Shown one piece after another: positions 8,210 through 11,244 of a stretch of 11,244 nucleotides of DNA (within the stretch, counting starts at the first letter, position 1; every line of letters starts with the position of its first letter). The notes beneath the pieces are model-generated. The model was not told where the DNA came from. It did no database searches and saw nothing but the letters and a program-made list of their open reading frames with translations. The stretch is from an uncultured Porphyromonadaceae bacterium. Lineage in GTDB: Bacteria > Bacteroidota > Bacteroidia > Bacteroidales > Muribaculaceae. The stretch spans positions 1 to 11,244 of the forward strand of contig USKE01000041.1 of the NCBI GenBank assembly GCA_900555165.1, in the 5' to 3' direction. The position numbers were made by a program, and so were the translations under genes.

Positions 8210-9616
8210 TTATCGGACGATAATCTTGCAGGTTTCGGATGTGTGGCCATTATCAGTGAGAGTGATAAGATAAATGCCGGACGGGAGATTGTCAGTTGGT
8301 ACTGAAACTTGTGTTTCATCAGCTTCTATCTTAAAGCTCATAATAGTAGAACCATTAAGAGCATTAACTCGGATAGTGCGCTCACTTGTGGATGCTGGTA
8401 TTTCCACAACTACAGGCGTCCCCTTGGAAGCCGGATTTGGCCGTGCGGTAATATGATTTTCTTCTTTGACTACCTTTACGACACCGCCCGTAGCCTTGTC
8501 AATGCGATAGAATCTCACGGTCTGCACATAGCGGCCTTGTTCATCATACCAATTGTAATTGACCTGTGCAAGAATGCTGTTGTCGGATTTGAAAAACACA
8601 ACGCTGGGTTTACCCTCGGCGTTGTCGGGCATCGGGAAAGTGTAAAGCACCTGATTATTGTCGTTCACGACCTCCAAACCCGTATAATGGACTCCAAATG
8701 TAGTGCGTTTATAGTCCGTTTCGCCATCGCCGTCACGGTCAGTATCAGTAATGCCGAAAAGATATTCTTCAGCGGAGGGTGAGCTGTCTGAAATGAAATT
8801 GCTCTCTCCACCTTCAGCTACTTCCGCTTTGAAACGAACGTATTCGAAAGCCTCATCATCGTTGAAGAAAGTCTGAGAGAATGGCAGATATACACCTCCG
8901 TTCCAGTCATTCAGTTTTGCAACATCATTGCAACGAGGGGTGCAGAAGTTACTGATTGGGACTTCCTCCCAAGAGCGAGTACTCCATTCGCCATTGTATT
9001 TTTGAGTCTGTATAGTGTAACGGTAGGAAAAACCCCACATACCCGATGGCTCAAGGTAAGCCTCAATTGTTCTGAGGTATTCCTCAAATTCGTACCATTG
9101 GTTGCCCTTTTGAAAGGGAATGTTTATAACGATAGAATTGTCTTCAACCCTGCTGCCATTTTGAAGAATGGCGAGAGACACTGACGGATCAGTATATCTT
9201 AACGTCTCGAAGATGTAATTGATGAAAGCGTTTTTGCGGGCTTCTATATCAGTGGCGGAAGGTATGCCGTCCGCTTCATCTATTACAAATCGGGATTCCT
9301 TAATCACACGGGATTTTTCCTGAGTCCCGGTAGAGGCTCTTTCCTTCAAGACGAAATAGGGCCGGAGAATGGGAAAATTGAATGATTTGAGAGGTTTCAG
9401 CTCAAAATCAAAGATTTCAGCCGAATACATTGTGCTGCCGTCGGAATATCCGTACTCATCCTCGGAGAAATAGATGGCGGCTTCGCCGTTCTTCATGTAC
9501 TGACCTGGGATGAAACGGGTGTCGGCACCGTTCATCTCCTTTACCAAAGTTTGCGCAGATGCGGCAAATGTGCCGACAAGAGCAGCAGCGATTGTGATAA
9601 TGCGGGTTATTCTCAT
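8210..9616 (-). CDS. Secreted protein of unknown function with C-terminal type IX sorting domain
   Basis: This 468-residue protein starts with a signal peptide (MRITRIITIAAALVGTFAASAQ, cleavage near residue 20-22). The ATG at 9616 is preferred over an in-frame upstream GTG at 9637, because it begins the signal peptide. The body (about 23-385) is rich in aromatic and beta-strand-like segments, and I recognise no enzyme family in it. Residues 301-312 (DTDRDGDGETDY) have the spacing of a calcium-binding EF-hand or thrombospondin-3-type loop. Residues about 391-468 are a typical Bacteroidetes sorting tail: RPNPASKG at its start, then VNALNGS, LPSGIYLITLTDNG and a final CKIIVR. Such tails direct export through the type IX system and removal or attachment at the surface. 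The gene appears more AT-rich than the glycosidase genes. A structured RNA with a terminator lies directly upstream, and no matching promoter is seen between it and the ATG. Confidence 0.85.
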   Translation of the reverse strand: MRITRIITIAAALVGTFAASAQTLVKEMNGADTRFIPGQYMKNGEAAIYFSEDEYGYSDGSTMYSAEIFDFELKPLKSFNFPILRPYFVLKERASTGTQEKSRVIKESRFVIDEADGIPSATDIEARKNAFINYIFETLRYTDPSVSLAILQNGSRVEDNSIVINIPFQKGNQWYEFEEYLRTIEAYLEPSGMWGFSYRYTIQTQKYNGEWSTRSWEEVPISNFCTPRCNDVAKLNDWNGGVYLPFSQTFFNDDEAFEYVRFKAEVAEGGESNFISDSSPSAEEYLFGITDTDRDGDGETDYKRTTFGVHYTGLEVVNDNNQVLYTFPMPDNAEGKPSVVFFKSDNSILAQVNYNWYDEQGRYVQTVRFYRIDKATGGVVKVVKEENHITARPNPASKGTPVVVEIPASTSERTIRVNALNGSTIMSFKIEADETQVSVPTDNLPSGIYLITLTDNGHTSETCKIIVR

Positions 9617-9660
9617 TACTGAATTGTTTGTCACCACTGACTCTGTGGAGAGATTTGTTA

Positions 9661-9692
9661 TAAAAAGAAAACGTGAGCCAACTATGCCACGT
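9661..9692 (-). terminator. Intrinsic terminator ending the structured RNA
   Basis: On the minus strand ACGTGGC (9692-9686) pairs with GGCTCACGT (9679-9671) with one bulged T, giving seven base pairs and a short loop. TTTTCTTTTT follows at once. It stands 45 bp before the start codon of the sorting-tail gene, so it either ends a free small RNA or works as an attenuator. Confidence 0.6.
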
Positions 9693-9871
9693 CTTGATTT
9701 GAAGGTCGTAGGAAACCATTAGCACAGATGTAACAATAGCAGCCCACGCTGTATGCGTGAGAACCACTATGCTAATCCTTGTGCTATTTGTCGAATTTCC
9801 TACGTTCTCAAACCACAAGATTACGCATAACGCTTCTTTTTTCAAAATGTCGTGACGGGAGTTATCCCAGT
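9661..9871 (-). ncRNA. Candidate structured RNA (small RNA or attenuating leader), about 210 nt
   Basis: On the minus strand this stretch has a consensus promoter before it, a rod-shaped fold and a terminator at its end. Pairing segments, nested outside to inside in window coordinates, are 9692-9696 with 9816-9820, 9698-9702 with 9808-9812, 9707-9715 with 9796-9804 (9 bp, CGTAGGAAA/TTTCCTACG), 9720-9726 with 9780-9786 (7 bp), 9737-9741 with 9770-9774, and 9745-9749 with 9755-9759. Internal loops separate them. A further small hairpin (9857-9868) would sit at the RNA 5' end. The long rod with bulged loops recalls 6S-type RNAs, but I cannot assign a family. Alternatively it is the leader of the sorting-tail gene 45 bp beyond, with premature termination as the control. 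Overlapping small ORFs here are poor coding candidates. Confidence 0.55.
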
Positions 9872-9877
9872 CGCCTA

Positions 9878-9908
9878 CAAAGTTACAACATTTTGCGACT
9901 CATGTCAA
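9878..9908 (-). promoter_or_regulatory. Bacteroidetes-type promoter for the structured RNA
   Basis: Reading the minus strand, the -7 box TAACTTTG (9885 to 9878) matches TAnnTTTG exactly. A -33 TTG (9908 to 9906) lies 20 nt upstream. The predicted start is near 9871, just at the small GGGA/TCCC hairpin (9857-9868). Confidence 0.65.
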
Positions 9909-9923
9909 TAGGTTGGTGAAAAA

Positions 9924-9931
9924 TAAGTTTG
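9924..9931 (+). promoter_or_regulatory. Probable -7 box for the GNAT gene
   Basis: TAAGTTTG matches TAnnTTTG exactly, and the start codon of the acetyltransferase is 60 bp on. No good -33 TTG stands at about 20 nt upstream (the nearest TTTG, at 9892-9895, is 28 nt away), so the call rests on the -7 box and on position. It is back to back with the minus-strand promoter at 9878-9908. Confidence 0.4.
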
Positions 9932-9990
9932 GTTCAGCCATAGATATAAGATGAAGCGTTCAAAGCCATAAGCACATTCCCTATGTAATC

Positions 9991-10524
9991 ATGGACTTTG
10001 GCAAATTCACTTTCCGGCAGATAGATGCCGATACACAAATAAGGTCATTCGATTGCGGCGATGCCGATTTGAATGACTTTTTATTTTCCGATGCCGTCAA
10101 CTACTACAAGTCTATGATGGCGTTGACCTATCTGCTTGAAGACAACGAGGCGGACAAGACAGTAGCATATTACAGCCTGCTCAACGACAAGATTGTGTTC
10201 GATCCTGACGAGAAGAAACTATGGAACCGACTTAACCGCCGTGTAGCCAATTCAAAACGGCGCAAGGAATATCCGGCTGTCAAAATCGGCCGTCTTGCCA
10301 TATCCAAAGATTACGCGGGCCAACATATAGGTAGTGCGATTCTATTGCAGGTGAAACACGTTTTCGCCACAATGCATCGGAGTGCTTGTCGTTTCATCAC
10401 GGTTGACGCATACGCAGCCGCCGTGCCATTCTATGAGAAATGCGGATTTATGTTCCTTTCCGAGAAAGACAAACATTCTCCCACAAAGGCTATGTATTTC
10501 GACTTTATCAATTTCCCGGAGTAA
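9991..10524 (+). CDS. GNAT family N-acetyltransferase
   Basis: This 177-residue protein is a cytoplasmic acetyl-CoA-dependent acetyltransferase. The N-terminal pattern F-D-C-G-D-A-D-L-N-D-F-L (20-31), followed by A-L-T-Y-L-L and V-A-Y-Y-S-L, is typical of the GNAT subgroup that includes TacT/AtaT-like tRNA-acetylating toxins and also non-toxic enzymes. Strand 4 and the CoA pyrophosphate loop are visible as IGRLAISKDYAGQHIG (99-114), a version of the R/Q-x-x-G-x-G/A motif. VDAYAAAVPFYEKCGF (138-153) is the usual C-terminal strand-helix with Tyr148, which often acts as general acid in this fold. TacT-type genes normally follow a small DUF1778 (RHH) antitoxin, and none is present in the 120 bp upstream or elsewhere in the window. 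I therefore call only the fold; the substrate is unknown. The start ATG at 9991 is the only suitable one near the conserved N-terminus. Confidence 0.88.
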   Translation: MDFGKFTFRQIDADTQIRSFDCGDADLNDFLFSDAVNYYKSMMALTYLLEDNEADKTVAYYSLLNDKIVFDPDEKKLWNRLNRRVANSKRRKEYPAVKIGRLAISKDYAGQHIGSAILLQVKHVFATMHRSACRFITVDAYAAAVPFYEKCGFMFLSEKDKHSPTKAMYFDFINFPE

Positions 10525-10664: not shown

Positions 10665-10946
10665 ATGGACAACAAGGGATTCACAGCCGCCATGGCACAA
10701 CAGATGGGTTGCGACACCGAGCAGGTGGCGCGCCTGGTGAGCGGATTCGCCTCGATATTAAAGCGCGAATGTGCCGACCTGAACCGCATAGCCATCCCCG
10801 GTTTCGGTGCTTTCGAAGGGGTGAAAAGAGATGAGGAGGTGCGCCGCGACCTCGTCACCGGCGCCGAAGTGCTGTATCCCCCCTGCATCGAGACAGAGTT
10901 CACGGCAGGTGTCATGCTTAAAAAGACATTAAGAGAAAACCGCTGA
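10665..10946 (+). CDS. HU-family DNA-binding protein
   Basis: This 93-residue protein has the length and order of the bacterial HU/IHF fold: a helical N-terminal half (about 1-40, FTAAMAQQMG and VARLVSGFASILKREC), then IAIPGFGAFEGVKR (42-55), where the GFG-x-F turn begins the beta-saddle, the arm (about 55-75) and a C-terminal helix. HU proteins bend and coat DNA as dimers. The arm tip, normally R-N-P-x-T-G with an intercalating proline, reads RDLVTG here (61-66), so the proline is replaced by Leu63. The next HU-like gene starts at the last base of its TGA stop codon (10944-10946), indicating translational coupling and a probable heteropartner. A strong promoter sits 30 bp upstream. The fold is clear, but the exact HU subtype is not. 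Confidence 0.88.
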   Translation: MDNKGFTAAMAQQMGCDTEQVARLVSGFASILKRECADLNRIAIPGFGAFEGVKRDEEVRRDLVTGAEVLYPPCIETEFTAGVMLKKTLRENR

Positions 10947-11244
10947 TGAACCGCACGATAGCCCTCCCCGCTCTGGTGGCCGAACTGGCCCGCACCAACA
11001 ACTGTGCCGATGAAACCGCATCGGAATTCCTGCATGCGCTGGCCCGCGTGGTGTCTAAAGGTCTGGCCGAAGATGGCGCGGTGACCGTAAGCGGCATCGG
11101 CATATTCAAGATCATAGACAAGCCGGGTGGGCCGGAAGTGGATTTCCTTCCCGACGCCGAGCTTGCCGCCGAAGCTCAGCATTTCCACGGCTGTATCAGA
11201 GGCGAGCGGGCCACCTTCCGGCCAGGTGCCGTGCACGCTGAAAT
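10946..11244 (+). CDS. HU-fold protein with a shortened arm, 3' end outside window
   Basis: The first 99 residues are visible, with no stop before the window ends. The helical half (LPALVAELARTNN, 7-19, then ETASEFLHALARVVSKGLAEDG, 23-44) and VTVSGIGIFKIID (46-58) match HU-fold proteins, with GIGIF as the saddle turn. In related Bacteroidales second-partner HU proteins, roughly twenty residues form the beta-arm between the turn and a [KV]-x-F-x-P-D strand. Here only KPGGP (59-63) stands between, before EVDFLPD (64-70). The arm is therefore missing or very short, so direct DNA insertion seems unlikely. The start ATG overlaps the TGA of the first HU gene by one base. A possible role is a dimer partner that limits or redirects the first HU protein. 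The tail beyond residue 75 (AAEAQHFHGCIRG) is not recognised, and later domains cannot be seen. Confidence 0.7.
   Translation, partial: MNRTIALPALVAELARTNNCADETASEFLHALARVVSKGLAEDGAVTVSGIGIFKIIDKPGGPEVDFLPDAELAAEAQHFHGCIRGERATFRPGAVHAE

Follow-up and report, generated by a model that had tools for sequence, protein, structure and literature searches.

A rod-shaped structured RNA that probably serves as a multicopy 5' leader of unrelated genes in Bacteroidales

Results

The locus

The window, that is, the whole stretch of 11,244 nucleotides that was analysed, carries an RNA element at 9872-9631 on the minus strand, directly ahead of a gene on the same strand whose ATG lies 54 nt after the RNA core. 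The rod fold of the element is kept by compensatory base changes. From 5' to 3' on the minus strand, the parts are as follows.

9908-9903, minus strand: -33-like box TTGACA, read from the sequence
9885-9878, minus strand: Bacteroidota -7 box TAACTTTG, read from the sequence and from TAnnTTTG counts among copies
9872-9854, minus strand: 5' hairpin, variable in sequence among copies; folds better than its own shuffles in 129 of 132 copies
9838-9818, minus strand: P0, a small conserved hairpin (AAGAAGCGUUAUGC...); beats its shuffles in 140 of 148 copies
9815-9695, minus strand: rod domain, helices P1-P6 with conserved internal loops; from the fold and from covariation in alignments A3, A4 and A8
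9692-9671, minus strand: P7 hairpin ACGUGGCAUAGUUGGCUCACGU, with loop segment GUUGGCUC at 9682-9675; from the fold, the alignment and the P8 pairing test
9670-9662, minus strand: U-rich linker U3CU5, not a conserved terminator tail; from the sequence and T-run counts
9650-9631, minus strand: P8 hairpin, its loop GAGUCAGU at 9643-9636 complementary to the P7 loop; from pairing and fold tests
9616-8210, minus strand: gene behind the RNA, for a 468-amino-acid secreted protein with a C-terminal Por_Secre_tail (type IX secretion sorting domain); from Pfam

TTGACA and TAACTTTG presumably form a Bacteroidota-type promoter, and the counts of the box among copies agree with this assignment. TTGACAT is present also at three other loci (L001, L004, and L008), and transcription would start a few bases 3' of the TAACTTTG box. 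A generic scan for sigma-70 promoters and terminators listed neither the promoter of the RNA nor a terminator at 9692-9671; that such a scan misses promoters of the Bacteroidota is expected for this phylum. Because T runs after P7 are rare and a same-strand open reading frame (ORF) is near, we take the element to extend past 9661 to P8 and the start codon at 9616. Mononucleotide shuffles were the control for the hairpin folds, the promoter box, the P7-P8 duplex, and the P8 fold counts.

On the plus strand, a GNAT gene (9991-10524) was considered as a toxin partner of the RNA and set aside, since it is divergent and lies behind the promoter of the RNA; the three orthologous RNA loci precede the Por_Secre_tail gene and not the GNAT gene. 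Positions 10665-11244, also on the plus strand, hold an HU-family gene (Pfam) followed by a tandem open frame, similar looking by eye, that runs past the window end.

Fold and covariation of the RNA

The minus strand of 9692-9820 folded at -48.8 kcal/mol (z score of -6.5, with 0 of 200 shuffles as good), whereas the plus strand reached a z score of only -3.54, so that the transcribed strand has the stronger fold. The 216-nt stretch 9662-9877 gave a fold of -72 with a z score of -5.35. The original prediction had read a rod of 35 base pairs in 9692-9820 directly from the sequence; the rod was recovered, but the minimum free energy structure of this 129-mer has 49 pairs instead.

An alignment of 32 cores (A2) gave an RNAalifold structure that, with its ends simplified, became model R1. 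Matches to R1 made up alignments A3 (86 rows, including the sequences from which R1 was built) and A4 (69 rows), both of which were fitted to R1 and are biased in its favor. In A3, 94.6% of the cells were paired and changes on both sides of a pair numbered 414, compared with 105.8 in shuffles; the corresponding values for A4 were 92.6% and 444 versus 135.1. The signal in both alignments collapsed when the partner strand was slid by 1 to 3 columns. A second model, R2, was built from 100 rows (A7), and 28 loci of the phylum sample that were absent from its building (A8) showed 88.5% paired cells, 286 changes on both sides versus 84.0, and a covariation of 0.523 versus 0.170 in controls. None of 500 shuffles reached any of the covariation measures in A3, A4, or A8. 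Thus, the covariation that had been proposed as a check on the stems was positive in all three alignments.

The clearest compensatory swap was found in P2, where CGUAGG/CCUACG becomes CCUGAG/CUCAGG, and G-U pairs were common in the stems. P7 was the weakest helix, with 87.3%, 81.4%, and 71.6% paired cells in A3, A4, and A8, respectively. The unpaired stretches of the rod were conserved over distant copies. It is very probable that this hairpin-rich region is a genuine RNA, and the earlier view that it is better explained as RNA than as coding DNA was borne out by the compensating stems of its homologues.

Position ahead of genes

We assembled 148 distinct copies of the RNA from 155 rows after discarding a weak reverse-strand match at L115 and merging 6 duplicates; downstream ORFs were chosen by a simple ATG rule in flanks of limited length. 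A same-strand ORF of at least 60 amino acids began with ATG within 400 nt behind the RNA in 146 of the 148 copies, and in 134 copies a same-strand ORF lay at most 80 nt behind it. The median distance from core to ORF was 53.5 nt, with 65 copies at 50 to 59 nt. As a control, 83 loci with sufficient flanks were compared on both sides: a downstream ORF of at least 100 amino acids was present in 78 (36 at 50 to 59 nt), versus 35 (1 at 50 to 59 nt) on the divergent side.

Of 147 copies, 135 had the promoter box TAnnTTTG within 75 nt 5' of the RNA (shuffle mean, 7.8), with its start 46 to 52 nt before the core (10th to 90th percentile). Between core and ATG it was found in 7 of 146 copies, which is the chance level (shuffle mean, 6.1). 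Given this placement of the box, the gene is most simply transcribed through the RNA. Thus, the RNA lies on the strand of the gene, between promoter and start codon and at a conserved spacing, and on this sequence evidence it is almost certainly the 5' leader of the downstream mRNA and not a stand-alone small RNA. The original prediction of a complete small-RNA gene is not supported, given the multiple copies, the same-strand ORF within 400 nt in nearly all of them, and a box frequency between RNA and ORF no higher than chance.

Among 28 weaker matches from the phylum sample, an ORF lay at most 80 nt away in 13, at 143 nt in 1, and at 200 to 350 nt in 10; none was found in 4. Several of the 10 with an ORF at 200 to 350 nt appeared by eye to be followed by a SusC-like gene. 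Five of these weaker homologues (L191, L201, L203, L207, and L208) stand 230 to 280 nt ahead of receptor genes that look SusC-like by eye and have a GCGATTCTTCA-like stretch in common near the likely start site.

The AUG in the P0 loop (GCGUUAUGC) was invariant in the 32 rows of A2. An upstream ORF starting from it was rejected, as neither its frame nor its stop is constant and L145 and L170-L172 lack the AUG.

Contact between the P7 and P8 loops

The loops of P7 and P8, the latter just ahead of the start codon, are complementary, and the loop pairs change in step between copies (GGCUC/GAGCC and AGUUCC/GGAACU); the GTTGGCTC/GAGTCAGT pairing was listed in 5 copies. A best-duplex score of 16 was reached by 53% of the copies, compared with 19% when downstream regions were exchanged among copies and 8% when they were shuffled. 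By their P7 loops, 127 copies were assigned to four types, A to D, the window copy being type A, and 21 of the 148 fell outside these types.

The P8 complement of the copy's own type was found, with G-U pairs allowed, in 37 of 44 type A, 25 of 48 type B, 17 of 22 type C, and 11 of 13 type D copies; with Watson-Crick pairs only, these numbers were 20, 12, 1, and 9, respectively. No own-type partner was found even with G-U pairs in 37 of the 127 typed copies. Under the same G-U rule, the A complement occurred in 13/48 B, 3/22 C, and 1/13 D copies; the B complement in 2/44 A, 2/22 C, and 3/13 D copies; the C complement in 2/44 A, 3/48 B, and 0/13 D copies; and the D complement in 4/44 A, 11/48 B, and 3/22 C copies.

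For the 98 copies with a partner found, to which the P8 fold test was restricted, the P8 segment beat its shuffles in 94 and the partner lay inside a hairpin loop in 63. The median distance from partner end to ATG was 21.5 nt in type A, 25 nt in B, 18 nt in D, and 45 nt in C. P8 is not universal, since in some leaders the ATG follows P7 almost directly (16 nt behind it in L036 and 9 nt in L038). Since some bases that pair between P7 and P8 also belong to the P7 stem, the contact may be a static pseudoknot instead of a switch.

Distribution

A search with the 8210-9616 gene gave 11 genome loci titled Muribaculaceae, Paramuribaculum, Porphyromonadaceae, or Bacteroidales. The RNA stood directly ahead of the orthologue in 3 of them (L001, L004, and L008), with 90 to 92% identity, and the remaining 8 held no match longer than 26 nt. 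Six of the 11 genomes have the RNA somewhere, one of them in three copies. At L010, an orthologue without the RNA, a 26-nt match to the stretch from RNA to start codon is kept, a pattern that would fit loss or replacement of the leader core close to the T tract; this genome has another copy of the RNA elsewhere.

A blastn search that scored no more than four candidates in each genome found the RNA in 83 of 198 relatives of genome G008. Under stricter filters, R1 matched in 64 of 295 genomes of the order sample and R2 in 32 of 395 genomes of the phylum sample, with G008 and G381 matching in both. Twelve genomes chosen for their prior matches carried 1 to 23 R2 copies each. The breadth outside the Bacteroidales would follow from the weaker phylum-sample matches.

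Seven records of the plasmid collection and one phage record carried the RNA. In IMG/VR, 22 of 42 loci picked by two patterns had a match, of which 19 were full length (15 distinct cores) and 3 were cut at contig ends; one further viral-contig pattern yielded nothing. In genome G077, leaders of identical score lie at C1:2072020-2072180 and C2:4785-4945, and the second contig is possibly a plasmid or a duplication.

Genes behind the leader

By blastp, the 146 downstream proteins grouped into 82 clusters, of which 61 had a single member, and 109 of the proteins had a hydrophobic N terminus by a crude rule. Cluster representatives were scanned against Pfam (80 of 82; two containing X were left out), and 68 families were found, nearly all of the 25 listed occurring once. 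These 25 include the secretion tail domain (3), aspartyl proteases (2), S41 peptidase, Zn_ribbon_2, DJ-1/PfpI, DarT, Beta-lactamase2, Aminoglyc_resit, MBOAT, LemA, and others, and ribosomal-protein families are not among them. PADLOC matches among the downstream proteins include AbiEi-like, DarT, and RT-protease models; the pairing of leader and AbiEi-like gene (L110) is doubtful because the ORF lies 376 nt from the leader.

On the Bacteroides uniformis plasmid pBUN1, the leader (L107:4004-4222) stands 53 nt ahead of the beta-lactamase gene blaMUN-1; the words "promoter," "upstream," and "leader" did not occur in the main text of the blaMUN-1 paper (PMC10989005). The RNA precedes a DarT gene in Parabacteroides distasonis and is also present in Bacteroides finegoldii and Prevotella sp. 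oral taxon 299.

The commonest gene behind the leader encodes a secreted-looking family of about 240 amino acids (...FLGIPVDGTKSEM...), a cluster of 15 comprising L150 and relatives, whose representative had no match in Pfam. On the viral contigs L227, L228, L230, L236, and L247, the leader stands ahead of a protein of about 364 amino acids starting with MDFKDSI. The leader in L227 and L236 may sit inside an operon, since TAnnTTTG is missing from the 75 nt 5' of it.

Comparison with known RNAs

At gathering thresholds, Rfam 15 gave 0 matches in the window and 0 in 20 divergent loci. At E values up to 10 there was no match on the strand of the RNA and no 6S RNA in 9600-9990, and at E values up to 0.1 only a tRNA appeared among 20 far loci. 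A plus-strand match to mir-308 (17.1 bits versus a gathering threshold of 60) was taken as chance. The model for 6S-Flavo (RF01685) matched in 0 of 8 genomes and likewise in 0 of 14 control genomes. The Rfam check proposed for 6S and 6S-Flavo was therefore negative in the window, and the other suggestion made from the sequence, an undescribed RNA, holds as far as we searched.

Orphan riboswitch candidates are structured RNAs between a promoter and a start codon. The leader resembles them in its compensatory stems, its conserved internal loops, and this position, but differs in that one leader precedes 82 protein clusters and a genome can hold as many as 23 copies. The led genes showed no common pathway, so there is no obvious ligand.

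A description of the RNA was not found in the literature searched, which included passages of PMC11697453, PMC8040213, PMC10989005, PMC2864571, and PMC7366714, and term look-ups in PMC11109978 and PMC8632094 gave no match; the family is apparently undescribed. The parts of PMC8040213 available to us report thousands of candidate RNAs, with which the leader was compared by description only, so that an earlier, nameless detection is possible. Two of these, HMP2_4205 and HMP2_4078, are described there as palindromic, 109 to 132 bp long, mostly from Bacteroidetes, and near TPR or phage genes, HMP2_4205 being called a terminator; judged by the descriptions alone, the leader is like them in being palindromic, in size, and in coming mostly from Bacteroidetes. 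According to the parts of PMC11697453 that were available, FopS, which is deposited in Rfam, consists of a single-stranded 5' stretch and a terminator and acts in trans. Like FopS and GibS, for whose spread phages are suspected, the leader is a multicopy, paralogous RNA of the Bacteroidales; unlike FopS, it is a long rod ahead of genes and had no Rfam match here.

Discussion

The combined reading that we favor, with a probability of roughly 60%, is that the RNA in the window is the 5' leader of the 9616-8210 mRNA and one copy of a widespread cis-acting family of structured leaders, that its rod senses a signal, and that translation is gated by P7 and P8. Transcription from the promoter would produce the 5' hairpin, P0, the conserved rod, P7, and, in most copies, P8, followed by the start codon. 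The conserved rod would be a putative receptor for a cellular signal, which may be a metabolite, an ion, or a protein, and its state would decide whether the P7-P8 contact forms. This contact, whose end lies about 18 to 25 nt 5' of the start codon in all loop types except C, would then gate translation initiation. A general signal (growth, stress, or envelope state) is more probable than the product of a single pathway, because dozens of gene families with no relation to one another have this leader. The sensing translational switch as such, judged from sequence comparison, we place a little short of even odds. More tentatively, the leader may be a portable, riboswitch-like module of global control across the phylum, in which a receptor rod and a coded loop-loop contact with interchangeable pairs travel with accessory genes on plasmids and phages.

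Few cis-regulatory RNAs are known in the Bacteroidota, which are among the main gut bacteria. If the favored reading is true, annotation has left an RNA regulon blank, many hypothetical secreted proteins are under shared control, and the search for the ligand or protein of the leader becomes directly testable.

The leader could instead be a constitutive 5' cap that stabilizes the mRNA or boosts its translation without sensing. The 5' hairpin near the presumed start in 129 of 132 copies would fit such a role, and a general-purpose module would suit 82 unrelated gene clusters; however, the conservation of unpaired rod stretches across distant copies exceeds what a protective hairpin needs, and we consider this reading unlikely.

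Somewhat less credible is a transcription attenuator, in which P7 and a U-rich tail would stop transcription unless the leader refolds. The P7 segment of the window folds at -8.7 (z score of -2.9), a U-rich tract follows P7 in the window and in other type A copies, and at least 6 T in the 8 nt after P7 were found in most copies of types A (36/49) and C (16/22), but such tracts are exceptional in types B (12/48) and D (4/18). Runs of at least 5 T in these 8 nt are rare, with 14 among all 148 copies (by type, 6/49 in A, 3/48 in B, 3/22 in C, and 0/18 in D; 2/11 in the others). Moreover, the partner of the P7 loop sits beyond the putative termination point and thus could play no antiterminator role before the polymerase has passed. 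From the original prediction of a promoter, a long rod, and a U-tract terminator, the promoter, the rod, and the 5' hairpin stand, while the terminator is not upheld by these counts.

A dual RNA, in which the leader would be processed or terminated into a stable small RNA acting in trans through pairing of the P7 loop with other mRNAs, seems to us quite improbable. The RNA has its own promoter, and short motifs in 5' UTRs complement its P7 loop, but the partner usually lies in the same mRNA and is matched in type.

We give very little weight to a mobile cassette or recombination site that folds as DNA in the manner of an integron attC site. The occurrence of the RNA in 7 plasmid-collection records, one phage record, and 22 of 42 IMG/VR loci, and the accessory genes in the cargo, would agree with mobility. 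Against this, copies look dispersed, with three close same-strand pairs, no conserved boundary is visible by eye 5' of the promoter box, and G-U pairs are common in stems whose fold is stronger on the transcribed strand.

6S RNA has a rod shape of similar size and is a free-standing gene in one or two copies, and a 6S-like inhibitor of RNA polymerase, as originally suggested from a rod with regular internal loops, is highly improbable here: the leader, at about 200 nt, shares the rod shape and size with 6S and 6S-Flavo (RF01685) but matched neither model in the window or in 20 divergent loci, occurs in several copies in many genomes, and stands in cis ahead of ORFs.
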